DNA of 64,000 nt from Alphaproteobacteria bacterium (lineage in GTDB: Bacteria > Pseudomonadota > Alphaproteobacteria > Rhizobiales > Xanthobacteraceae). A model generated the notes under the pieces. It was not told the DNA's origin. It worked only from the letters and a program-made list of their open reading frames with translations, and ran no database searches. Positions within the stretch are counted from its first letter, which is position 1, and each line of letters begins with the position of its first letter. Below are positions 46,178 through 55,964 of the stretch, one piece after another. Location: contig JBBCGH010000001.1 of the NCBI GenBank assembly GCA_037200445.1, forward strand, positions 806,001 to 870,000, written 5' to 3'. Made by a program: the position numbers and the translations under genes.

Positions 46178-49100
46178 TCAATGGAAATTCCGCCCCTTCG
46201 GCATCACCTGGGCGATCTCGGCGGCCGGCGCGAAGTGGCCCGGCTCCTCCTTGAGGAGCGTCACAAGGGCATCCCCGGCGCGCGGGTGACGATGCCGCTC
46301 GATGATCGGGCGCCGCGTCTGATCGGCATGCGCGGGGATATCGACGCAGCCGTGCTCGTCCGATAGACCGCGCAGCAGCGGCGTCAGATCCTCGATGTGA
46401 TCCAGCACCACATGGATCACGCCCGAGGCGCTTTGCAGGGGGCCCGTGACGGCGACAAGGCGCGCGCCGATCACGACCGGGCGATACGTCTCGAACGCGC
46501 GCGCCCACACGATCGTGTTGGCGATGCCGGTCTCGTCCTCCAGCGTCATGAAGATCACGCCCTTGGCGGTGCCGGGCCGCTGGCGCACCAGCACCAGCCC
46601 TGCGACGGTCACACGCTCGCCGTTGCGGATGCCCGGCAGCAGTTCGTGGCGCAGGATGCCGCGGCGGTCGAGCTCGCCACGCAGGAACGAGACCGGGTGC
46701 GCCTTGAGCGAGAGATGCAGGTGGCGATAGTCCTCGACCACCTGCTCGCCTACCGGCATCGGCGGCAGATCGACGTCCGGCTCGAGCTCGCCCATCGCGA
46801 CGCAGCGGAACAGCGGCAGGTCGTCCTTGTCGCCGGTGCGCTGCAGCGCGCGCACCGCCCAGAGCGCATCGCGGCGCGAGAGGCCGAGCGAGCCGAACGC
46901 GTCCGCGTTGGCGAGCCGCTCCAGCACGGTGGGCGGCAGCCGCGTGCGCAGCCACAGATCGCGCACCGAGTCGAAGCCGCGCCCGCGCACCGATTCGATG
47001 CGCAGCGCGTGGTCTTCCGAGAGGCCGCTGATCTGGCGGAAGCCGAGCCGCATCGCATGCGCCGTTCGGATGTCGGATTGCATGGAGACATGGCGGGGGT
47101 GGATCTGTCCACCAGCGGCGCGGGTAGCATTTGTGCCCTCTCCCCTTGTGGGAGAGGGCATCGCCGATGAGTCAACAAATGCAGTCGGGTGAGGGGTTAC
47201 GGCTTTACCCCTCACCCATTCTTCGTCGTTGAACTTCCGAGTTGCCCTCTCCCACAAGGGGAGAGGGCACAAAAACTCCAGCGTGCAATCCCAGTCGGAA
47301 AAATTCACATCGACCGGACGCACCGTAACGCCGTGCTCGCGTGCGTCGCGCACGATCTGCGCCGGCGCGTAGAAGCCCATCGGCTGGCTGTTCAAGAGCG
47401 CGGCCGCGAAAACGTCGGGGTAGTAGCACTTCATCCAGCACGAGACGTAGACGAGGTTCGCGAAGCTCGCCGCATGGCTCTCCGGGAAGCCGTATTCGCC
47501 GAAGCCGCGGATCTGGTTGAAGCAGCTCTCGACGAATTCGCGCGCGTAGCCGCGCGCCGTCATGCGCTCGATGAACTGGTCCTTGAAATTCTGGATCGTC
47601 CCCATGCGCCGGAAGGTCGCCATGGCGCGGCGCAGTCCGTTCGCCTCGTCCGGCGTGAACTCGGCCGCCACCATGGCGATGCGCATCGCCTGTTCCTGAA
47701 ACAGCGGAATACCGAGCGTCTTGTGCAGGATGCTGCGCAATTCGTCTTTTTTGTCAGGATAAAGAGATGGAAACGGGTAGGGCGGCTCCACCCTGGTTTC
47801 GCGGAATTTTTCACGCCGCTGCAGATAGGGATGCACCATCTTTCCCTGGATCGGCCCCGGCCGCACGATCGCGACCTCGATGACGAGGTCATAGAATTTC
47901 TCAGGACGCAGGCGCGGCAGCATCGACATCTGCGCGCGGCTCTCGATCTGGAAGGTACCGAGCGTATCGGCGCGCTGGATCATGCGGTAGACCGGCTTGC
48001 GCTCGGCTTCGTCTTCCTGATCGTGTCCCGGCCTGATGTATTCGCGCCGCAGGATCGCCGCGATCGTTTCAGGCAAACGGTAGTGACCTTTGAGAAGATC
48101 GAAGCCGCGCCGGATGCATGACAGCATCCCGAGCCCGAGCACGTCGACCTTCAACAGCCGCAGCGTGTCGAGATCGTCCTTGTCCCATTCGATCGCGGTG
48201 CGATCGTCCATCGCGGCATTCTCGACCGGCACGACTTCGTCGATGCGCGAGCGCGTGATGAGAAAACCGCCGACGTGCTGCGAGAGGTGGCGCGGCGTAT
48301 CGATCAGCTCTTCGGCAAGCTGCATGACGCGGTTGAGCCGCGGATCGTCGGGATCGAGCCCGACGCGGCGCGCTTCCTGTTCCTTCACGCCAGACTGCGA
48401 CCAGCCCCATAGCATCCCGGCAAGCGCGCCGACCGTATCGTCGGAAAGGCCGAACGCCTTGCCGACCTCGCGGATCGCGCTGCGCCCGCGATAGCAGATG
48501 ACGGTCGCCGCAAGGTTCGCATGATGGCGGCCGTATTTGTTATAGATGTGCTGGATCACCTCCTCGCGCCGCTCGTGCTCGAAGTCGACATCGATGTCGG
48601 GAGGTTCTCTGCGCTCCTCGGCGACGAAGCGCTCGAACAGAAGGTCGACTTTCTCGGGATCGACCTCGGTGATCTCGAGGCAGTAACAAATGACCGAGTT
48701 CGCCGCCGAACCGCGGCCCTGGCACAGGATGCCTTTGGAGCGCGCGAAGCGGACGATGTCGTGAACGGTCAGGAAGTAGGGCGCATAGCCAAGGTCGGAT
48801 GTGACCCTTAACTCCTTGTCGAGTGCCGCACGAACGTCCTTCCTGGCCCCGTTCGGATAACGCTTCCGGTACCCATCCTCCACAAGCGCCACGAGCGCAT
48901 CCTGCGGCCGTGCAAAGCCCACACGGTTTTCGTCGGGGTATTCGGTCTTCTTGAGTTCCCCGAGCGAGAAATTGCAGCGATCGAGAAAACGCAGCGTGCG
49001 GTCGATCGCGTCCGGTGCGCGGCGGAACAGCCGCGCCATCTCCTGGGGCGATTTCAGGTGCCGCTCGGCATTCGCTTCGAGCAGGCGGCCGGCGTTATCG

Positions 49101-49834
49101 ATGGTGACGTGCTCGCGGATGCAGGTCATGACGTCCTGCAAGGGCCGCCGCTCGGGCGCGTGATAGAGCACGTCGTTCACGGCGATGAGCGGGACGCCGG
49201 TGCTTTCGGAGATTGTCGCGAGCCGTCGCAGCCGGCGGCTGTCGTCGCCGCGATAGAGCATGCTGGCGGCGAGCCAGACGGACTGTCGGTTGGCTGTCCT
49301 TAAACGCCCCAAAAGCTCAACGAACGCACCGGCCTTGATCCGTACCGGCGGCATCACAATCAAATTGAGTCCTGCAACATGCTCCAGCAGATCCTCGAAA
49401 AACAGAATGCACTCGGCTTTCTCAGCCCGGCTTTTGCCGACGGTGAGCAGGCGCGTCAGGCGTCCCCAGGCGGTGCGGTTCTGCGGATAGGCGAGGATGT
49501 CCGGTGTGCCGTCCGCAAAGCAGAGCCGCGCGCCGGCAATCAGTTTCAGCTCCGGGACGCTGCTGCCGCATTCCGAATTCCGCTTGCGAATTTCTTCATT
49601 CAAGTCTTCCGCCTCGCCGTAGGCGCGTACGACTCCCGCGACGCTGTTGCGGTCCGCGATCCCGATGCCGGCAAGACCGAGAAGAACAGCCTGCCTGACC
49701 AGCTCCCTTGCGTGAGAGGCGCCGCGCAAGAAAGAAAAGTTGCTCGAAACGGCAAGCTCCGCATAGGCGGGCACCGGGGTGTCCGGCCGTTCGCGCGCCG
49801 CGTGCTCGGCGGAAAACGCGACGATATTGCTCAT
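46178..49834 (-). CDS. dnaE2: Error-prone DNA polymerase III alpha subunit DnaE2 (ImuC), with an in-frame repeat insertion
   Basis: A 1218-residue C-family polymerase. The PHP domain begins near residue 24 (YAELAVSSNFSFLRGASHARELV), and the polymerase core includes the PDIDVDFEHERR acidic motif and GRGSAANSVICYCL. The HhH/OB C-terminal part ends GRNFH. It performs translesion synthesis with ImuA and ImuB. Codons for about residues 856-900 are a family-A palindromic repeat (47133-47270, 138 bases, divisible by three). It encodes CPLPLWERATRKF and further residues between the native segments DWDCTLE and IHPRHVSM. The frame stays open, so the protein is about 46 residues longer than expected in the linker after the polymerase core. 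The start overlaps the imuB stop. Confidence 0.93.
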   Translation of the reverse strand: MSNIVAFSAEHAARERPDTPVPAYAELAVSSNFSFLRGASHARELVRQAVLLGLAGIGIADRNSVAGVVRAYGEAEDLNEEIRKRNSECGSSVPELKLIAGARLCFADGTPDILAYPQNRTAWGRLTRLLTVGKSRAEKAECILFFEDLLEHVAGLNLIVMPPVRIKAGAFVELLGRLRTANRQSVWLAASMLYRGDDSRRLRRLATISESTGVPLIAVNDVLYHAPERRPLQDVMTCIREHVTIDNAGRLLEANAERHLKSPQEMARLFRRAPDAIDRTLRFLDRCNFSLGELKKTEYPDENRVGFARPQDALVALVEDGYRKRYPNGARKDVRAALDKELRVTSDLGYAPYFLTVHDIVRFARSKGILCQGRGSAANSVICYCLEITEVDPEKVDLLFERFVAEERREPPDIDVDFEHERREEVIQHIYNKYGRHHANLAATVICYRGRSAIREVGKAFGLSDDTVGALAGMLWGWSQSGVKEQEARRVGLDPDDPRLNRVMQLAEELIDTPRHLSQHVGGFLITRSRIDEVVPVENAAMDDRTAIEWDKDDLDTLRLLKVDVLGLGMLSCIRRGFDLLKGHYRLPETIAAILRREYIRPGHDQEDEAERKPVYRMIQRADTLGTFQIESRAQMSMLPRLRPEKFYDLVIEVAIVRPGPIQGKMVHPYLQRREKFRETRVEPPYPFPSLYPDKKDELRSILHKTLGIPLFQEQAMRIAMVAAEFTPDEANGLRRAMATFRRMGTIQNFKDQFIERMTARGYAREFVESCFNQIRGFGEYGFPESHAASFANLVYVSCWMKCYYPDVFAAALLNSQPMGFYAPAQIVRDAREHGVTVRPVDVNFSDWDCTLEFLCPLPLWERATRKFNDEEWVRGKAVTPHPTAFVDSSAMPSPTRGEGTNATRAAGGQIHPRHVSMQSDIRTAHAMRLGFRQISGLSEDHALRIESVRGRGFDSVRDLWLRTRLPPTVLERLANADAFGSLGLSRRDALWAVRALQRTGDKDDLPLFRCVAMGELEPDVDLPPMPVGEQVVEDYRHLHLSLKAHPVSFLRGELDRRGILRHELLPGIRNGERVTVAGLVLVRQRPGTAKGVIFMTLEDETGIANTIVWARAFETYRPVVIGARLVAVTGPLQSASGVIHVVLDHIEDLTPLLRGLSDEHGCVDIPAHADQTRRPIIERHRHPRAGDALVTLLKEEPGHFAPAAEIAQVMPKGRNFH
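47133..47270. repeat. Palindromic repeat, family A, inside dnaE2
   Basis: Outer arms GTGCCCTCTCCCCTTGTGGG and the exact reverse complement at the right end (CCCACAAGGGGAGAGGGCAC), inner arms GGGTGAGGGGT and ACCCCTCACCC, as in the intergenic copy at 20847. Length 138 bases, a multiple of three, and stop-free in the dnaE2 frame. Confidence 0.93.
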
Positions 49835-51489
49835 GCGAACACGCCATGCAGGAACCAGCGCGTCGGTTTCTGCTGATCGTGTTCTTGTTCTTCACCTTTT
49901 TTCTTTGGTTTTGGCCACGCGCGAAACAGCCATACGCGCAGCCCTTCGCGGCTCTCGACCCGGAAGTAATCGCGCATGAGCGCGTTGCCGGCCTCGTCGC
50001 GCCACCATTCCATCGCGATGCGCTCCGGCCCTTCGACATGCGCCACTTCGTGCAGCACATGGCGCCAGCGAAACCGCACCGGCGGCCCGTCCGGCACCTC
50101 GGCGATGGCGTCCACCGGCTCGGGCCGCGCGAGCAGGCGGATGGGGCGGGTGGGGGCGAGGGAGTCTTGCTCTGCGTGTCCCGGACGCGGTGCAGCGTGA
50201 AACGGTGCACCGCTGATCCGGGACCCCGGTTCATGAAAGCCACCGGGATCCCGGGTCTGCAACGCACCACTGCGTGCTGCGCTGCGCCCGGGAAACGCGG
50301 CTGATGCAGCCCCCACCGCCATCACGGCAAACTCAGGAATGTGCGTGTCCTGCGCGACAAAGCGCGTGACGCGGCGCAGGCCGAAGCGTGCGCCGAGCCG
50401 GTCGATCAGATGCGCAAGCTCCGCCGCATGGTCGGGCTGGGCGAGGCCGGTCTGGGCCGGCTCGCTGCGCTCGGTGACCAGTGCGGCGAGGCGCAGCATG
50501 TCGTAGCCAAAGCCCGGATCGATCTCGTCTCCGATGACGCCGAGCCGGTCGGCGAACAGATGGCGGATGCGCGCCGGTTCGCGCAGCGGCTCGGCGGTGC
50601 CGGCCTCGACGCGAAAGACTTTGCCGTCGGTGCGGAACAGCGCGGCCTGCAACAGCCGCGCGCCTTCGCCGCGCCGCTCCAGCAGCGCGGAAAGTTTTCC
50701 CGCAAGCTTCTCGATGGTGCCGAGTACGTCGCGTTCGAGTGCGATGGGCTCGGCGAAGCGCTGCTCGGCGATCGCCGCGGGGATCGGCAGCCGCGGCGCG
50801 ATCGGTTCGTCCTCGCGGCCGAGCGCCTGGTCGAGGCGGCGCACGAACTGCGCGCCGAAGCGCGCCGCGAGCGGTGCGCGAGGGCGGTCGAGCACGTCGG
50901 CGATGCGCTTCAGGCCGACCTGGGAGAGTGCCTCGATGGTTTCGCCGGAAAGGCGGAGCGCCGCGAGGGGGAGGGGGGCGATTGCATTACGTTCTTCGCC
51001 GGACAGAACAGTCGCCTTATCCGAAAATCGCGCCACCCCCCACGCACATCCGACCGTATCGGCAATCGCGCTGCGCGCCTGAATGCCTTGGGCAGCAAGC
51101 CGCCGCACCAGATCAGCGGCAAGCGCCGCCTCGCCGCCGAACAGATGCGCGCAGCCGGAAATATCGAGCGTCAGCCCGTCGGGCGGATCGAGCCCGGCCA
51201 GCGGCGTATAGCGGTCGCACCACTCGGCGATCGCTTCGAGCAGCGCGAAATCTGCCGGCTCGTCTGCGTCCGCCACGTTGAGCTTCGGATACATCGCACG
51301 CGCATCCGCAAGCGGCATGCCCACGCGCAGGCCGCGCGACGCCGCGGCGTCGTTGACGGCGGAGAGCCGCAACGCGCTCTTCACGGGGCTGGCTACGACC
51401 AGCGCGTCAGGCGGATAATGCTTCGCGATCCGGTCCGTCGAGAGAAGCCGCAGCCACACCGACAGATAGCGCCGAGAAGATGCGCTCAT
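49831..51489 (-). CDS. imuB: Y-family polymerase-like mutasome protein ImuB, with an in-frame repeat insertion
   Basis: A 552-residue ImuB. The N-terminal Y-family region (RRYLSVWLRLLSTDRIA, LRVGMPLADARAMYPKL, LTLDISGCAHLFGGE) lacks the paired catalytic acids of active Y polymerases, as is normal for ImuB. The C-terminus ends RWFLHGVFA, typical of the family. Codons for about residues 398-438 derive from a family-C palindrome (50176-50297), giving a Gly/Ser/Pro/Arg-rich stretch between the native segments HIPEFAVMAV and PIRLLARPEPVDAIAEVPDGPP. ImuB bridges the beta clamp, ImuA and DnaE2. It overlaps imuA by 83 bases and dnaE2 by four. Confidence 0.92.
   Translation of the reverse strand: MSASSRRYLSVWLRLLSTDRIAKHYPPDALVVASPVKSALRLSAVNDAAASRGLRVGMPLADARAMYPKLNVADADEPADFALLEAIAEWCDRYTPLAGLDPPDGLTLDISGCAHLFGGEAALAADLVRRLAAQGIQARSAIADTVGCAWGVARFSDKATVLSGEERNAIAPLPLAALRLSGETIEALSQVGLKRIADVLDRPRAPLAARFGAQFVRRLDQALGREDEPIAPRLPIPAAIAEQRFAEPIALERDVLGTIEKLAGKLSALLERRGEGARLLQAALFRTDGKVFRVEAGTAEPLREPARIRHLFADRLGVIGDEIDPGFGYDMLRLAALVTERSEPAQTGLAQPDHAAELAHLIDRLGARFGLRRVTRFVAQDTHIPEFAVMAVGAASAAFPGRSAARSGALQTRDPGGFHEPGSRISGAPFHAAPRPGHAEQDSLAPTRPIRLLARPEPVDAIAEVPDGPPVRFRWRHVLHEVAHVEGPERIAMEWWRDEAGNALMRDYFRVESREGLRVWLFRAWPKPKKKGEEQEHDQQKPTRWFLHGVFA
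50176..50297. repeat. Palindromic repeat, family C, inside imuB
   Basis: Left arm GTGTCCCGGACGCGG and right arm GCGCCCGGGAAACG, an imperfect match, with an inner GACCCCGG and CCGGGATCCCGGGTC region. It is the same family as the copies at 28027, 29209 and 56385, which are all intergenic. In imuB it is read in frame with no stop. Confidence 0.88.
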
Positions 51490-52159
51490 GATGATCCCAA
51501 GTGAGTGTCCAGGCGCCGCAGGGCCCGCGGCGGTTGCGCGTCAGCGAGAGGTGGAAAGCCGTAGGCCCGAGCCCGCCGAACTCATCCGGTACGCTTCGGG
51601 CAGGCGCGACCTGCCAGCGCGTGAAGGCCGCGCTTGGCGCATCGCTCAGTTTGTGGCGCAGCAACAGCCCGAGCGCGCCGCCCTCGCGCGCCGCAAGGCC
51701 GAGCCGGCGCGTCGCCGTGAGATCGGCTTCGCCGTTTGCTTCCGCCACGACGGCCGAGAGCGCGCGGCACTTGAGCGCCTCTTCGGCGGCGAACAGCGCA
51801 TCGACCGGCCGCGCCACGCGCACGACCAGCAGCCGCTCGGTGGGAAGGCCGATTTGATCGAGACCGGGGCCGTAGAGCGCGCCGGTTTCCAGCATGCCGA
51901 AATCCGTCGCGATCCAGAGCGTCTGCTTGGCTTGCTCGGATGCGAGCGCCGCCAGCGTGAGCGCAAACCCCGCCGCCGCGCCGAGGTGCAGCGAGGTGGC
52001 ACTCAGCTCATGCAGAGCGGCGCGCGAGAAGCCGCCGCCGAGCGCCGCATCGATCTCGGCAACGCCAAGCTCGAGCGGGCGCACCTCCTCGGGCAGCGCT
52101 TCGCTTTTGGCGATGGCGCGCCGCAGACGCGAAAGCTGCTCCATGTCGGCAGGGAGCAT
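51407..52159 (-). CDS. imuA: SOS mutasome protein ImuA
   Basis: A 250-residue RecA-like protein. The first strand block is LELGVAEIDAALGGGFSRAALHELSA near 28-53, followed by a hydrophobic core (TLWIATDFGMLETGALYGPGLDQIGL) and a C-terminal part ending in low-complexity residues. ImuA lacks a classical Walker A lysine motif, as seen here. It is the first gene of imuA-imuB-dnaE2, preceded by a LexA box. ATG at 52159; an internal ATG at 52144 is an alternative. Confidence 0.88.
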   Translation of the reverse strand: MLPADMEQLSRLRRAIAKSEALPEEVRPLELGVAEIDAALGGGFSRAALHELSATSLHLGAAAGFALTLAALASEQAKQTLWIATDFGMLETGALYGPGLDQIGLPTERLLVVRVARPVDALFAAEEALKCRALSAVVAEANGEADLTATRRLGLAAREGGALGLLLRHKLSDAPSAAFTRWQVAPARSVPDEFGGLGPTAFHLSLTRNRRGPCGAWTLTWDHHERIFSALSVGVAAASLDGPDREALSA

Positions 52160-52172
52160 GGCGGGATCCGTT

Positions 52173-52187
52173 GTTCATGATTTGTTC
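52173..52187. promoter_or_regulatory. LexA (SOS) box of the imuA-imuB-dnaE2 operon
   Basis: GTTC (52173-52176), seven bases, GTTC (52184-52187): an exact match to the alphaproteobacterial direct-repeat LexA site GTTC-N7-GTTC, 14 bases upstream of the imuA start. LexA bound here would block the promoter until DNA damage. Confidence 0.88.
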
Positions 52188-52338
52188 TATGATTCCGCCA
52201 AGCCGGCGGGGAGTCAAGCAGCTTGCTAAGCTATTGAATCTTATCGGAATTGGCAGGCGGCTGGGTGGTGCATCATTTTGAATGTGGCAAACGCAGTTCG
52301 TCCTTGCAGTTCGCCCCGCAAATCAGCACCTTCGCTGC

Positions 52339-52584
52339 ATGCCTCGTGGTCCCAAAGGTGAGCGCCGCCCCGCCGACGTGATCGGCGCGGCCGTCATGGT
52401 CGCGAGGATCGCGACAGGCGAAGTCGAGGACACGAAGCGCGAGAAGAATGCGCACGCCGCTGCCCTCGGTAAGCTTGGCGGGGCGAAGGGCGGTGCGGCG
52501 CGGGCCGCTAAGTTGGACCCCAAGAAGCGCAAGCAGATTGCCGCCAAGGCGGCAAAGGCCCGCTGGTCAAGCAAGGGCGGCTAA
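52339..52584 (+). CDS. Small basic Gly/Ala/Lys-rich protein (81 aa), hypothetical
   Basis: An 81-residue protein starting MPRGPKGERRPADVIG at 52339. The C-terminal half (LGKLGGAKGGAARAAKLDP and KQIAAKAAKARW) is a basic, helix-forming, nucleic-acid-binding-like segment found in small rhizobial proteins of unknown role. DNA or RNA binding is likely from composition only. It overlaps the convergent gene by four bases. First gene of the island-like stretch after the mutasome. Confidence 0.65.
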   Translation: MPRGPKGERRPADVIGAAVMVARIATGEVEDTKREKNAHAAALGKLGGAKGGAARAAKLDPKKRKQIAAKAAKARWSSKGG

Positions 52585-53330
52585 GCGCGCTCCTGTTGGT
52601 TGCTCGCATCCTGTTCCTCGAAATCGCGGTCAGGTCGGTACTTCCAGCCGTTCCGAGTGACCTTGTCCGACTCGAAACAAGAGAACTTCGAAAGGAACGA
52701 CGCGAAGTTCTGCCGTTCGTTCTGACCGCCGATTGGCACGCCCGTTTCCTTTACCCGGTCAAACAGTTCCCCGAACTTCATTGGTTCGGTCTTACCCCGC
52801 AGAATCCGCCTAATCGTTTCGAACAACTGCTGTTTTTCAGGGGAGCGCCTGCGGCCAACACCCGGCTCCGACCGCTGCGCCGTGGATTGTTCATGAACGG
52901 CAGGGGCCCGCAAATGAGCAATGTCCGTGGCGCTCGGGGGCCACGGCACCCCCCTGATCCACCATCCTACATCCTTGATGAATTGCAGTTTTTTATGCGT
53001 GGACATGGCCGACGCCAGCAGAGATGACGGAAGCTTTCCTTCCAATTCCATCCCGCGATCAACGGTGATGATCTTGAAAAGGTCGCCAATCGCCATTGGG
53101 TGCCCAGCGGCACGGATTATGGCCTCAGCCTCGCTTGCAGCGCGCGAGTAGGACTTCCGATTGATGCTGTCGAGGACGGGCGGCGGCTCGGAGGGCGAAG
53201 GGACCACCAGTAGATCGTACTTTGCGACAATGCGTTCCAGGTCCCTCATGTCGCGCTCAATTTCCTGTGCCTTTTCAAGGGCACGGCGATATTCAGCCTC
53301 CATGATTTCGCGCGGCGTGGGCATGGTCAT
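52581..53330 (-). CDS. Hypothetical protein with two winged-helix (HARE-HTH-like) segments
   Basis: A 249-residue protein. Residues about 8-40 form a coiled coil (EAEYRRALEKAQEIERDMRDLERIV). Two similar helical modules follow. The first is at about 65-125 (AEAIIRAAGHPMAIGDLFKIIT to KDVGWWIRGV), the second at about 165-232 (LFETIRRILRGKTEPMKFGELFDRV to VTRNGWKYRP). Both have the pattern of HARE-HTH winged helices ending in a W-containing wing. The family is linked to modified-DNA recognition and restriction systems, so a defence or chromatin-like role is possible but not shown. No partner nuclease or methylase is nearby. Confidence 0.6.
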   Translation of the reverse strand: MTMPTPREIMEAEYRRALEKAQEIERDMRDLERIVAKYDLLVVPSPSEPPPVLDSINRKSYSRAASEAEAIIRAAGHPMAIGDLFKIITVDRGMELEGKLPSSLLASAMSTHKKLQFIKDVGWWIRGVPWPPSATDIAHLRAPAVHEQSTAQRSEPGVGRRRSPEKQQLFETIRRILRGKTEPMKFGELFDRVKETGVPIGGQNERQNFASFLSKFSCFESDKVTRNGWKYRPDRDFEEQDASNQQERA

Positions 53331-53589
53331 GTCTTAATAGCCGAGATTCCCACTTGTGACCAATAAAACCTTCTTCCTTCCCGAGGCGTGATGCGGTAGG
53401 GTTAAGACGGTCCCGAATCTCGAAATGAAAACCGGGCCACTGGGGCCCGGTTAGGTCTCAACTAAGTGTGGAAGCCGCTGCAGGGCGGCTCGAAAGGCAG
53501 GTGGTACATGAGCAGCTAATGATGCCGCTCACCCTTCTACCGGGCTGGCCGCTCGATCTTCACTCGGGCGGTCAGTTCGGCTTGATGTC
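53331..53589. other. Intergenic stretch with a strong hairpin
   Basis: Contains a stem AACCGGGCC (53430-53438) and GGCCCGGTT (53444-53452) with a five-base loop and no U run. It could end transcripts from either side. Nothing else is recognisable before the tRNA-like gene at 53590. Confidence 0.5.
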
Positions 53590-53665
53590 CCCCACGTAGC
53601 TCAGCGGATAGAGCACTTGGTTGCTAGCCGAGAGGTCGCCGGTCCGAATCCGGCCGTGGGGGCCA
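53590..53665 (+). tRNA. Class-I tRNA with GCU (serine) anticodon and arginine-like body, CCA encoded
   Basis: A complete cloverleaf. The acceptor stem is CCCCACG/CGTGGGG (seven pairs), the D stem GCTC/GAGC, the anticodon stem CTTGG/CCGAG with loop TTGCTAG (anticodon GCT at 53623-53625), a five-base variable loop AGGTC, the T stem GCCGG/CCGGC, discriminator G and CCA (53663-53665). GCU decodes Ser AGU/AGC, yet bacterial serine tRNAs have a long variable arm, which is absent. The D arm (TAGCTCAGCGGATAGAGCA) resembles arginine tRNAs and holds A20; C35, U36 and G73 also fit ArgRS recognition. The T loop reads TCCGAAT, with C at the normally invariant position 55. It may be a misreading, decayed or specialised tRNA. 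Confidence 0.75.
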
Positions 53666-53677
53666 TCATCGAATCGT

Positions 53678-53693
53678 GGAGCCATCAGGCTCC
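53678..53693 (+). terminator. Hairpin just after the tRNA
   Basis: GGAGCC-ATCA-GGCTCC, a perfect six-pair stem with a four-base loop, 12 bases past the CCA, followed by CTATATATA. A plausible but weak transcription end. Confidence 0.45.
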
Positions 53694-53785
53694 CTATATA
53701 TAACTGATTGAATCGACTGTCAAATTTTAGCTGAGGGAGTCTTTTTTCCTGATAAATCAATAATATCCACAAACTGAAACTATGC

Positions 53786-53813
53786 TTGACCGTGTAAGCA
53801 AGTAATGTATAAT
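53786..53813 (+). promoter_or_regulatory. Near-consensus sigma-70 promoter giving a leaderless transcript
   Basis: TTGACC (53786-53791), 16 bases, TATAAT (53808-53813). Transcription would begin about seven bases later, at or next to the A of the transposase ATG at 53820, so no ribosome site would be transcribed. No Shine-Dalgarno sequence precedes the gene except the GGGGG within the initiation region. Confidence 0.65.
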
Positions 53814-53819
53814 GGGGGC

Positions 53820-54731
53820 ATGAACAAGCTCCCCGTCGAAACCCGCGTCCAAATCCTCTCCATGCTCTGCGAGGGATCGTCCATGCGCTCAATCTCCCGC
53901 GTGTGCGATGTCTCGTTCAACACCGTCGCTAAGCTGCTCGTTGACGCGGGCAAGGTCTGCTCTGATTTTCACGATGAACGTGTCCGTAAGGTCAAAGCTC
54001 GGAACGTCGCTTGCGACGAAATCTGGAGCTTCAACTATTGCAAGGGGCGCAATGTTAAGAAGGCGAGCAGCGCGCCGGAAGGCGCGGGCGACGTGTGGAC
54101 GTGGACTGCAATCGACTCCGACACGAAGCTCATGATCTCGTGGCTAGTGGGGAGCCGCAATAGCCATGCCGCTAATCACTTCCTCCGCGATCTCCGCTCG
54201 CGCGTTGCTGGTGAACCACAAATTACGACCGACGGGCACAAGCCATACATTCAGGCTGTTGCCGCCGCGTTTGGGCCGGATGTTGACTACGCGATGTTGG
54301 TCAAGATTTTCGGCCCCGAGACAGCAGTCGGTCCCGAGAAGCGTTACAGCCCGCCCGTGTGCATCGGCGCTGAGGCTAGTGTGGTCTCCGGCTATCCCGA
54401 TCTTTCGCGCGTGAATACTTCGTTCGCCGAAAGGCAAAATTTAACGATGCGAATGTCCATGCGAAGATTCACGAGATTGACAAATGCTTTTTCGAAAAAG
54501 TTCGAAAACCATTGCCATGCGCTTGCACTCTACTTCGTTTGGTACAATTGGATTCGCACGCACAAAACGCTTCGCATGACGCCTGCGATGGCAGCTGGTT
54601 TGACCGACAAGCTGATGGACTGGTCGGACATCGTGTTGCTGATGGACGTGAGCGAGCGCGAAGCTGTCCTTGACAAGCGCGGCATGGTGCTGCGTAGCGG
54701 GCGCGATCCGTTCGATCGGATCAGTCTGTAA
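53820..54731 (+). CDS. IS1-like DDE transposase
   Basis: A 303-residue transposase beginning MNKLPVETRVQILSMLCEG. An N-terminal helix-turn-helix (SMRSISRVCDVSFNTVAKLL) is followed by a DDE core with Asp in ACDEIWSF near 67, Asp in TTDGHKPY near 137 and Glu in SFAERQNLTMRMSMRRFTRL near 203. This matches the single-ORF IS1-like proteins common in alphaproteobacteria. I see no clear terminal inverted repeats or target duplication, so it may be a domesticated or decayed copy. A near-consensus promoter lies immediately upstream. Base composition is lower in GC than the catabolic genes. Confidence 0.85.
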   Translation: MNKLPVETRVQILSMLCEGSSMRSISRVCDVSFNTVAKLLVDAGKVCSDFHDERVRKVKARNVACDEIWSFNYCKGRNVKKASSAPEGAGDVWTWTAIDSDTKLMISWLVGSRNSHAANHFLRDLRSRVAGEPQITTDGHKPYIQAVAAAFGPDVDYAMLVKIFGPETAVGPEKRYSPPVCIGAEASVVSGYPDLSRVNTSFAERQNLTMRMSMRRFTRLTNAFSKKFENHCHALALYFVWYNWIRTHKTLRMTPAMAAGLTDKLMDWSDIVLLMDVSEREAVLDKRGMVLRSGRDPFDRISL

Positions 54732-54732
54732 A

Positions 54733-55659
54733 TTATTCAGCGTGCGTTATATCGAGCAAGTGTAGCGCAGCGGGATGATATGATCCATCAGCGCGCTTTC
54801 GAAGAACCAGCATGGCATCGCCGCGCACTATCGACTTCATGTAGACCTGCTCTGGCTTGATTGGTGGCTCCAATTCGATGCGAATGCGCTTAGGGGCTAT
54901 CTCCCTAACAACGCCGGCCCATCCCTGCTTGGCACGATCTACGTCTTGAGCATGAAGCTCGATGGTTACATCTCGGACCATACGAGAAATCTCGGGAGCA
55001 TCAGCCCCTTCGATTTCGGCTTCGTTAGGTATCTCTGAAATCGTGTCCGCATCGATGTTGGTATTCCCGATCACCACAGGGGCGTTATGGTCACGCTTGC
55101 TTGGTCTAAAAAAATCAATTGCGGCACGAGTCAGAACGCGCAATCTGCTCTTGCCGTACTGTTTCTCTAAAATCTTTTTGATGCGCTCTTCCGAGACACC
55201 GCATTCACCGGACAGTTCGCGTGCGACAGAGTCGAGTTGCTGCCTAATGCGTTGAGAGTAGGCCTTCTTACTCACCTGGTTGCGGATTGCCTCGGCCCCG
55301 TACAGCAACAAGATCACAAAAGCCAAGCTCAGAAGACTGTTGTAGGCCTCGGGAACGGGCGCGCCGTAGAACTGCTCCGCTAGCTTTGACATGGCCTTGT
55401 CCAAATCTTTCTGGTGCAAGGCGTAGATCGCCACAATAAGCGACTGAACGAAGGGGCTTTCCTGCGACAGGTTGCGAACTGAAATGCCAACACGTTCGAT
55501 TGTGAGGCCCGGAACGCAGCTTTCGAGAAGCGGAGCGGTCTCCCGCAATAGCTGCTCTGTGGCAAGCAGCGCGGACACCACATCCGCGACGGGAACGGGC
55601 TGCTCGACGTAATACACAACCCGATGTGGGACAATGATCTCAGGCACGCTATCCCCCAC
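54733..55659 (-). CDS. Hypothetical protein with one membrane-like segment
   Basis: A 308-residue protein with a GTG start at 55659. The N-terminal half is acidic and helical. A hydrophobic stretch near residues 108-122 (YNSLLSLAFVILLLYGAEAI) could anchor it, followed by a basic/coiled segment (KKAYSQRIRQQLDSVARELSGECGVSEERIKKIL) and a beta-rich C-terminal part (RIRIELEPPIKPEQVYMKSIVRGDAMLVL). I recognise no family. It is convergent with the transposase gene, two bases away, and codon use looks like the island rather than the catabolic genes. Confidence 0.65.
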   Translation of the reverse strand: MGDSVPEIIVPHRVVYYVEQPVPVADVVSALLATEQLLRETAPLLESCVPGLTIERVGISVRNLSQESPFVQSLIVAIYALHQKDLDKAMSKLAEQFYGAPVPEAYNSLLSLAFVILLLYGAEAIRNQVSKKAYSQRIRQQLDSVARELSGECGVSEERIKKILEKQYGKSRLRVLTRAAIDFFRPSKRDHNAPVVIGNTNIDADTISEIPNEAEIEGADAPEISRMVRDVTIELHAQDVDRAKQGWAGVVREIAPKRIRIELEPPIKPEQVYMKSIVRGDAMLVLRKRADGSYHPAALHLLDITHAE

Positions 55660-55964
55660 GCCTCCCTACTGGGGGGTAGGGTGGCAGAAGTACAGCCTGA
55701 GGGAAACATGCTTATGTTCCTATCAAACTGAGGCATTACCGGCGGCTGCTTCGCCGCCAGAATTCCTAAAGTGACTGCCCCGCCGATCCCGCCAATCATC
55801 GCGCCCAACGGCATGAAGGTGAGAAAGACCAGCATTCCCGCATAGCCCTCGCGATCGCTGACATTGAAGATTTTCACGCAAGCCAGGCCAACGCCGACAC
55901 CGATCGCAGCGCCAAACAGGGCACCCAGAAAGAGCCCGATGATCGCTAGGCAGCCGACCTGCAT
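55380..55964 (-). CDS. Small membrane protein, probably with a run-on C-terminus
   Basis: The first ~75 residues form a convincing membrane protein with two or three glycine-rich helices (CLAIIGLFLGALFGAAIGVGVGLACV and LVFLTFMPLGAMIGGIGGAVTLGILAA). Beyond about residue 85 the frame overlaps the next gene by 280 bases in another phase and loses protein-like character. Either the true product is short and the end has been lost, or the downstream gene starts later. Function unknown. Confidence 0.45.
   Translation of the reverse strand: MQVGCLAIIGLFLGALFGAAIGVGVGLACVKIFNVSDREGYAGMLVFLTFMPLGAMIGGIGGAVTLGILAAKQPPVMPQFDRNISMFPSGCTSATLPPSREAWGIACLRSLSHIGLCITSSSPFPSRMWCPRCLPQSSYCGRPLRFSKAAFRASQSNVLAFQFATCRRKAPSFSRLLWRSTPCTRKIWTRPCQS

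Follow-up and report, generated by a model that had tools for sequence, protein, structure and literature searches.

What does a tRNA gene do when its anticodon reads serine codons, its sequence carries the nucleotides of an arginine tRNA, and it sits next to a transposase? This question is raised by a gene in the 64,000-nt stretch of DNA analyzed here (the window). A preliminary description of the locus had suggested that such a tRNA, if charged with arginine, could act as a natural mistranslator, and had also offered a decoy, an integration landmark and a decayed gene as other possibilities.

Structure and identity of the tRNA gene

ARAGORN called a single tRNA in the 64-kb window, at 53590-53665 on the forward strand, and printed it as tRNA-Ser(gct), while the Rfam family RF00005 matched 53590-53662 (59.4 bits, E = 2.6e-10). 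Segmentation gave an acceptor stem of 7/7 pairs, a D stem of 4/4, an anticodon stem of 5/5 (one of them U-G) and a T stem of 5/5, with a 5-nt variable loop, the anticodon loop TTGCTAG, the T loop TCCGAAT, and G73 followed by an encoded CCA. The stems, five-base variable loop, CCA and GCT anticodon given in the preliminary description were all confirmed. The gene has the marks of a class I tRNA (compensatory changes, T33, an anticodon, D- and T-loop signatures), with the exception of position 55, where C replaces the usual T. We found no promoter-like site for the tRNA itself.

According to the available text of a review, arginine identity in bacteria resides in A20, C35, U or G at position 36 and A or G at position 73, and the variable arm is the main determinant of serine identity (PMC9976931); a genetic-code screen, in its available text, assigned arginine tRNAs by A20 together with A/G73 (PMC8629427). 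The window tRNA has A20, C35, U36 and G73. Its 5-nt variable loop stands against the class II arm of the host tRNA-Ser(GCT), which bears out the earlier remark that the long variable arm of bacterial serine tRNAs is absent. We call the tRNA arginine-type because of these four nucleotides and not because of global similarity; in overall identity to host tRNAs, Asn(GTT) leads with 74.0% and Arg(TCT) reaches 73.3%. The earlier claim of an arginine-type body therefore stood as far as the identity nucleotides go, and did not stand for overall identity.

Among the 43 distinct tRNA sequences called by ARAGORN in the host genome, the window tRNA included, we found a normal class II tRNA-Ser(GCT) with a long variable arm and a complete set of five tRNA-Arg (ACG, CCG, TCG, TCT and CCT). 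All five tRNA-Arg have A20 followed by a position 20a, a feature found elsewhere in the host only in the window tRNA; Ala and Val(CAC) were also tabulated with A20, in a GGGA run in which position 20 is read as G. Since the host has its own Ser(GCT) and all five tRNA-Arg, the window tRNA is dispensable for host decoding. One further weak tRNA-family match (33.6 bits), uncalled by ARAGORN, was seen at G000:C1:1463741-1463802.

The transposon carrying the tRNA

The tRNA gene is a passenger within a 3,477-bp IS1-family transposon spanning 52264-55740 (Table 1), whose ends were bounded with a terminal motif, GGTAGTGTCTCAGTTT, that is common to the ends of many sister copies. As expected of an IS1-family element, its transposase has homologues in the family, its ends are terminal inverted repeats, and its target duplication of 8 bp lies within the usual 8-9 bp. 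The transposase matches Pfam DDE_Tnp_IS240 above the cut-off and DDE_Tnp_IS1 just below it, and its plasmid homologues carry the annotation "IS1 family transposase." An IS1-like gene is thus present, as had been noted, and the tRNA lies not beside it but inside a transposon with repeats and duplication of its own. These ends also disfavor the suggestion of an integration landmark.

Table 1. Coordinates of the transposon, its target duplication and the features within it (window positions).
Feature	Position	Strand	Basis
Target-site duplication, left copy, 8 bp, GGCGGCTG	52256..52263	.	End analysis; perfect match to right copy
Left terminal inverted repeat, diverged, 3 mismatches to GGTAGTGTCTCAGTTT	52264..52279	+	Motif search
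Small basic ORF, MPRGPKGERRPADVIG...	52339..52584	+	Similar ORFs near left end of many sister elements
Putative coiled-coil and winged-helix protein	52581..53330	-	Sub-cut-off Pfam HARE-HTH, AlphaFold, weak PDB matches
G+C-rich hairpin of leader	53430..53452	.	Predicted
Mini-ORF ATG AGC AGC TAA after Shine-Dalgarno-like AGGCAGGTGG	53508..53519	+	By eye; function speculative
17-bp predicted hairpin immediately 5' of tRNA	53540..53580	+	Prediction
tRNA, arginine identity set, GCU anticodon, encoded CCA	53590..53665	+	ARAGORN, Rfam, segmentation, 11-tRNA alignment
Promoter-like site of transposase gene, TTGACC-16-TATAAT, 11/12 consensus	53786..53813	+	
IS1-family transposase, start 53820 inferred	53820..54731	+	Pfam, plasmid homologues
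Second passenger ORF, 308 aa, without known family	54733..55659	-	Pfam, PADLOC
Right terminal inverted repeat, 1 mismatch to GGTAGTGTCTCAGTTT	55725..55740	-	Motif search
Target-site duplication, right copy, GGCGGCTG	55741..55748	.	End analysis

The small basic ORF had no Pfam or PADLOC match, and PADLOC returned no defence-model match among four window ORFs and four relatives. A consensus MP[KR]GP[KR]GE[KR]RPADVIG... recurs in small basic ORFs near the left end of many elements. The start codon of the transposase stands six bases past the -10-like box (53786-53820), which suggests that its message is leaderless.

By eye, the insertion lies close to the 3' end of a small membrane-protein ORF, some 100 bases ahead of an ORF that we take to be ImuA-like; in an empty-site reading, also by eye (55740-55964), the membrane-protein ORF gains seven codons and then a stop. 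The ORFs at 46178-52159 are presumably an ImuA-ImuB-DnaE2-like mutagenesis cassette, a label of which the IMS domain is the only part to come from a domain search. A GTTC-N7-GTTC box lies at 52173-52187, where about 1.4 such boxes are expected by chance per window, and we assume a LexA role for it.

Related elements and conservation of the tRNA

The transposase search was positive for 46 of 199 relatives and, with the cut-off made stricter, for 48 of 397 genomes from the order; in named genome contigs it gave 10 loci. ARAGORN, run on the regions upstream of these transposases, called a window-type tRNA at four loci (L081, L084, L087 and L134), which were accordingly recovered with no demand on A20 or the anticodon; L081 had already turned up, at 85% identity, when the tRNA was used as a DNA query. 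With loci that duplicate one another counted once (for example L079/L172, L039/L081/L129/L173, L084/L123/L169 and L087/L128), 28 distinct complete elements had terminal repeats and a target duplication with at most one mismatch. Five of them, the window element and these four, carry the tRNA and have perfect 8-bp duplications; 23 do not carry it.

A pattern of A20 plus a TTGCTA loop matched 5 of 391 genomes of the family, two of them new (L170 and L171), each with its tRNA adjoining a related transposase; L170 has both terminal repeats and no target duplication, and at L171 only the left repeat was seen. The same pattern gave three matches in viral contigs (L174-L176), at none of which did we find a match to the window transposase. 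A looser pattern that did not demand A20 matched 20 viral stretches, L174-L176 included; among 289 genomes from the class it matched two, the window's own and L194. Our alignment therefore comprises 11 tRNAs: that of the window, six beside related transposases, three from viral contigs and one from another genome. Of the ten relatives, six were found by patterns requiring the GCU loop (L170, L171 and L174-L176 with A20 demanded, L194 without).

ARAGORN called a tRNA in 11 of the 20 viral stretches and none at the site in the other nine (L177, L180, L181, L183, L184, L187-L189 and L192). From the 11 we aligned only L174-L176; L179 and L185 have A20 and a TTGCTA loop and were left out for lack of a comparable neighbouring protein, and L178, L182, L186, L190, L191 and L193, which have no plain A20, were also left unaligned. 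The tRNAs of L182/L191, L190/L193 and L178 are class I GCU tRNAs without A20, possibly of other mismatched isotypes. The window transposase itself matched two viral loci; upstream of it ARAGORN found no tRNA in L197 and made an unconvincing call in L196. DNA searches with the tRNA matched seven plasmid and eight phage records, all below 90% identity, and seven of the eight phage records are annotated as tRNA-Arg at the match.

Across the 11 tRNAs, 97.8% of 231 stem cells are paired, compared with 30.7-46.4% in slid-partner controls, and 15 of the 21 stem pairs show changes on both sides. Because compensatory changes recur in the ten relatives, the cloverleaf as predicted from these sequences is not a product of chance. 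A20, T33, C35, T36 and A37 are invariant in 11/11, partly as a consequence of the search patterns, and position 73 is A or G in all. The anticodon is GCU in 10/11, counting L081 by its bulge reading, and ACU in L087. In the four relatives recovered free of any pattern, A20, C35 and U36 are kept in 4/4 and GCU in 3/4, L081 again by our reading: ARAGORN prints this tRNA (as L039) as Ala(tgc), and a GCU loop on a five-pair stem results if one base bulges out on the 5' side of the anticodon stem, as it does in the RNAfold prediction. L081, L087, L176 and L194 have imperfect anticodon stems, CCA is encoded in 3/11, and Arg is the best host isotype by plain identity for 7/11.

The free drift of anticodon and stems that would have spoken against the proposal has so far not been seen, given that the stems covary and that three of the four pattern-free relatives have GCU and one ACU. 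Because the cloverleaf and A20/C35/U36 are kept throughout and GCU in 10/11, an arginine-type tRNA reading AGC/AGU appears to be under selection. Within these limits of ascertainment, body and anticodon belong to different isotypes and are conserved together, as in dual-identity tRNAs, and there is good support for a conserved tRNA, carried by a transposon, that joins an arginine identity set to a serine anticodon. Charging by ArgRS is likely on the same sequence grounds, because the identity set is found in 11/11, Arg is the best isotype for 7/11 and the phage matches are annotated as tRNA-Arg.

The protein encoded at 52581-53330 gave a Pfam HARE-HTH match at residues 66-114 (E = 3e-4) that is below the curated cut-off. 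Its AlphaFold model has a helix at 6-37 and the H-H-H-E-E order of a winged helix at 164-231, with blocks of pLDDT 72-92, poor confidence elsewhere and a mean of 55.1. Among the weak PDB matches of this model were winged-helix domains, none with E <= 0.001, and a PDB profile search with five relatives of the protein gave no more than a pair of weak matches (E = 0.067 and 0.49). By its look, a coiled-coil/winged-helix protein occurs in 5/5 complete elements with the tRNA and in 2/23 without it (P = 0.0002), classes that were assigned by eye with the tRNAs already known. Pfam found no HTH in the linked proteins of L081, L084, L087 and L134, and the window's protein is the only one supported past the by-eye class, by HARE-HTH and AlphaFold. 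Small proteins of this look also precede the tRNA at L174, L176 and L194 (by 64, 39 and 53 bases), and at L175 by 263 bases with another tRNA between; a viral contig search with the L174 neighbour returned only its own locus. We rejected a fixed protein-tRNA pair: of 15 aligned loci of the L175 protein family, L175 itself is the only one with a tRNA a short way downstream (a sixteenth locus gave no alignment). It is possible that the 52581-53330 protein regulates the tRNA.

We also compared the passengers of the tRNA-less elements by scanning 30 proteins from 21 of the 23 against Pfam. Ten of the 21 carry domains that we group as toxin-antitoxin or defence-type: Fic in three, an IrrE-like peptidase with HTH in four (one also with HigB), HicB in one, AbiEii in one, just below the cut-off, and a CAP12-type TIR domain in one. 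Five further elements carry, respectively, an HTH with a YdaS-like match, an AAA ATPase, a serine protease, P63C and a HARE-HTH protein, and the proteins scanned from the remaining six had no Pfam match.

Possible roles and known systems

Our best reading of the whole, which we hold with slightly less than even confidence, is that the passenger encodes a selected tRNA, here called tRNA-ArgS, with arginine identity and an anticodon for AGC/AGU. Host ArgRS is predicted to charge it; when expressed, it would compete with the host tRNA-Ser(GCT) at AGC/AGU codons and insert arginine at some of them, and the coiled-coil winged-helix protein probably controls its expression. The module would then serve either as an effector, toxic or defensive, that works conditionally through a tRNA, or as a means of switching mistranslation on and off. 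Mistranslation is the most economical reading of body and anticodon taken together. A toxic or defensive role is our hypothesis, proposed because toxin-antitoxin or defence genes are frequent passengers of sister transposons, in a slot that tRNA-ArgS would occupy in this element.

Efficient reading of AGY as arginine might be visible in the element's own genes. Of the AGY codons in the transposases, 3/63 in tRNA elements and 5/383 elsewhere coincide with arginine-majority columns (P = 0.089); for serine-majority columns the counts are 16/63 and 179/383. We saw no avoidance of AGY at conserved serine columns, where 16/47 versus 144/385 serine codons are AGY (P = 0.75). Self-recoding by the element was rejected on these results, the arginine columns giving P = 0.089 and codon choice at conserved serine columns not differing. 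Because the transposase codon tests show no convincing sign of it, mistranslation, if any, is probably weak, conditional or absent under normal conditions. AGC makes up 11.1 per 1000 of the 3878 codons in eight window ORFs and is thus common enough that strong expression of the tRNA should be costly, which fits a repressed effector.

A more specific version, which we consider unlikely, is that some IS1-family transposons and viruses keep tRNA-ArgS repressed as a new kind of addiction or defence effector, with other mismatched tRNA-likes as its parallels at the same position in a second transposon group. Loss or inactivation of the linked winged-helix regulator would let arginine flood AGC/AGU codons and poison the proteome, be it the cell's own or an invading phage's.

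This second, more distant IS1-family group has other tRNA-like RNAs 143-161 bp before the transposase in seven distinct copies, with two more in viral contigs (loci noted: L103-L107, L118, L120, L198 and L199), and the window's group keeps its tRNA 121-175 bp upstream. Both observations would also suit a structural mimic, in which the tRNA shape is an RNase P/RNase Z processing or insulation device before the transposase and decoding is irrelevant. The second-group RNAs are marked by a Glu-like D arm, an anticodon loop containing TAC and, often, C55. Read by eye, the stems of their anticodon arms contain bulges and T33 is missing from some, for which reason decoding by them seems doubtful, again as a mimic would have it. 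For the window's group we judge a mimic unlikely, given that A20, T33, C35, T36 and A37 are invariant (in part through the patterns) while the stems change, and that similar tRNAs occur in three viral contigs with no transposase match at the locus. In eight aligned second-group leaders, AGCCGA-like segments are matched by complementary TCGGC-like ones. At 5/11 second-group loci (L117, L118, L126, L127 and L198, with L125 doubtful) we found a target duplication together with terminal repeats that begin with GGTACTGGCC or GGTGCTGGCC, a raw count. Two tRNA-likes upstream of transposases, both seen by eye and uncalled by ARAGORN, depart from this form: a class II (Ser/Leu-like) one with a CTTACCC loop at L119, and an irregular one with CCTTACCAA at L117, whose loop is complementary to an upstream TTGGTAAGG.

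A further possibility, which we think quite unlikely, is an antidote or decoy, with the tRNA supplying or mimicking an AGC reader once the host tRNA-Ser(GCU) has been cleaved or sequestered, possibly through a CreT-like mini-ORF in the leader. As described in the available parts of the respective papers, the six-codon toxin CreT sequesters a tRNA, and its full relief needs the overexpressed tRNA plus agmatine (PMC8501985), and phage tRNAs escape tRNA-cutting defences (PMC10264068). By a strict Shine-Dalgarno criterion, mini-ORFs are present in 10 of 20 leaders versus 2.3 expected from shuffles, the leaders not being independent, and AGC codons occur in the mini-ORFs of the window, L081 (by eye), L087 and L170. 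The window and L081 mini-ORFs, however, fail the strict criterion and are uncounted, those of L134 and L171 have no AGY codon, we found no mini-ORF in the L084 leader, and an arginine-charged tRNA would make a poor serine substitute. A codon-anticodon match between mini-ORF and tRNA was rejected as a general rule, failing for L134 and L171. Some leader mini-ORFs have repeated AGC, AGG or AGA codons.

It is decidedly unlikely that another amino acid, such as Asn or Ser, is attached, in which case the tRNA would mistranslate in another way or would be a normal serine tRNA whose body is unusual. The window copy is indeed nearest to a host tRNA-Asn, yet the long variable arm is absent, A20 marks arginine in this host, and Arg is the best host isotype for most of the aligned tRNAs. 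That the gene is a decayed, unexpressed passenger without function, as C55 and the lack of a promoter-like site found for it might indicate and as had been suggested earlier, is very unlikely in view of the compensatory changes and kept anticodon across distant elements, the presence of C55 in 5/11 of the tRNAs and the transposon's own ends.

We therefore return to tRNA-ArgS as a putative mobile mistranslator or effector. Conserved bacterial tRNAs whose body and anticodon disagree have rarely been documented. If the reading is right, codon ambiguity becomes a mobile trait, a tRNA fills a passenger slot that often holds toxins or defence genes, and annotation by anticodon (tRNA-Ser in ARAGORN) conceals such genes. 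With subscription journals mostly outside its scope, our literature search found no report of a tRNA as passenger of an insertion sequence or IS1-family element, and none of an arginine/serine mismatched tRNA on transposons or phages.

The Candida CUG tRNA is a eukaryotic decoding tRNA and is not known as a mobile passenger. It resembles tRNA-ArgS, as far as the available text of one report goes, in that codon ambiguity (Ser/Leu) is genetically encoded (PMC10365949). The phage tRNAs that evade tRNA-cutting defences, as the available text presents them, are likewise extra tRNAs on mobile elements, and differ in that body and anticodon disagree in the window tRNA (PMC10264068). The CreT minigene, in the part of the paper available, shares with the window leader a very short, Shine-Dalgarno-led ORF of repeated codons, whereas here a tRNA gene follows the mini-ORF and the codons are absent in some relatives (PMC8501985). 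Passenger-bearing IS1-family transposons have the same kind of transposase, terminal inverted repeats and 8-bp duplication, and differ in that the passenger here is a tRNA gene.

By analogy, the closest precedent is tRNA-ProX. According to the available text, its members tRNA-ProA, -ProN and -ProT of Streptomyces and Kitasatospora mistranslate and are toxic in E. coli, and the known bacterial dual-identity family is usually accompanied by its own synthetase (PMC10365949); a second report, also available in part, treats them too (PMC11415595). tRNA-ProX proper has a proline body and a neighbouring synthetase gene, ProRSx; the window tRNA differs in both, and no synthetase gene was found among the four element ORFs scanned. 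The likeness, so far as these two sources extend, is that one isotype's body is joined to another's anticodon and kept in several genomes (PMC10365949, PMC11415595). The differences are that tRNA-ProX pairs a Pro body with an Ala, Asn or Thr anticodon and the window tRNA pairs arginine identity with a serine anticodon, and that the relatives of the window tRNA are found on IS1-family transposons and also in viral contigs. The known kind to which it belongs is that of the dual-identity tRNAs, and what is new is the arginine/serine pairing and its carriage by a transposon.
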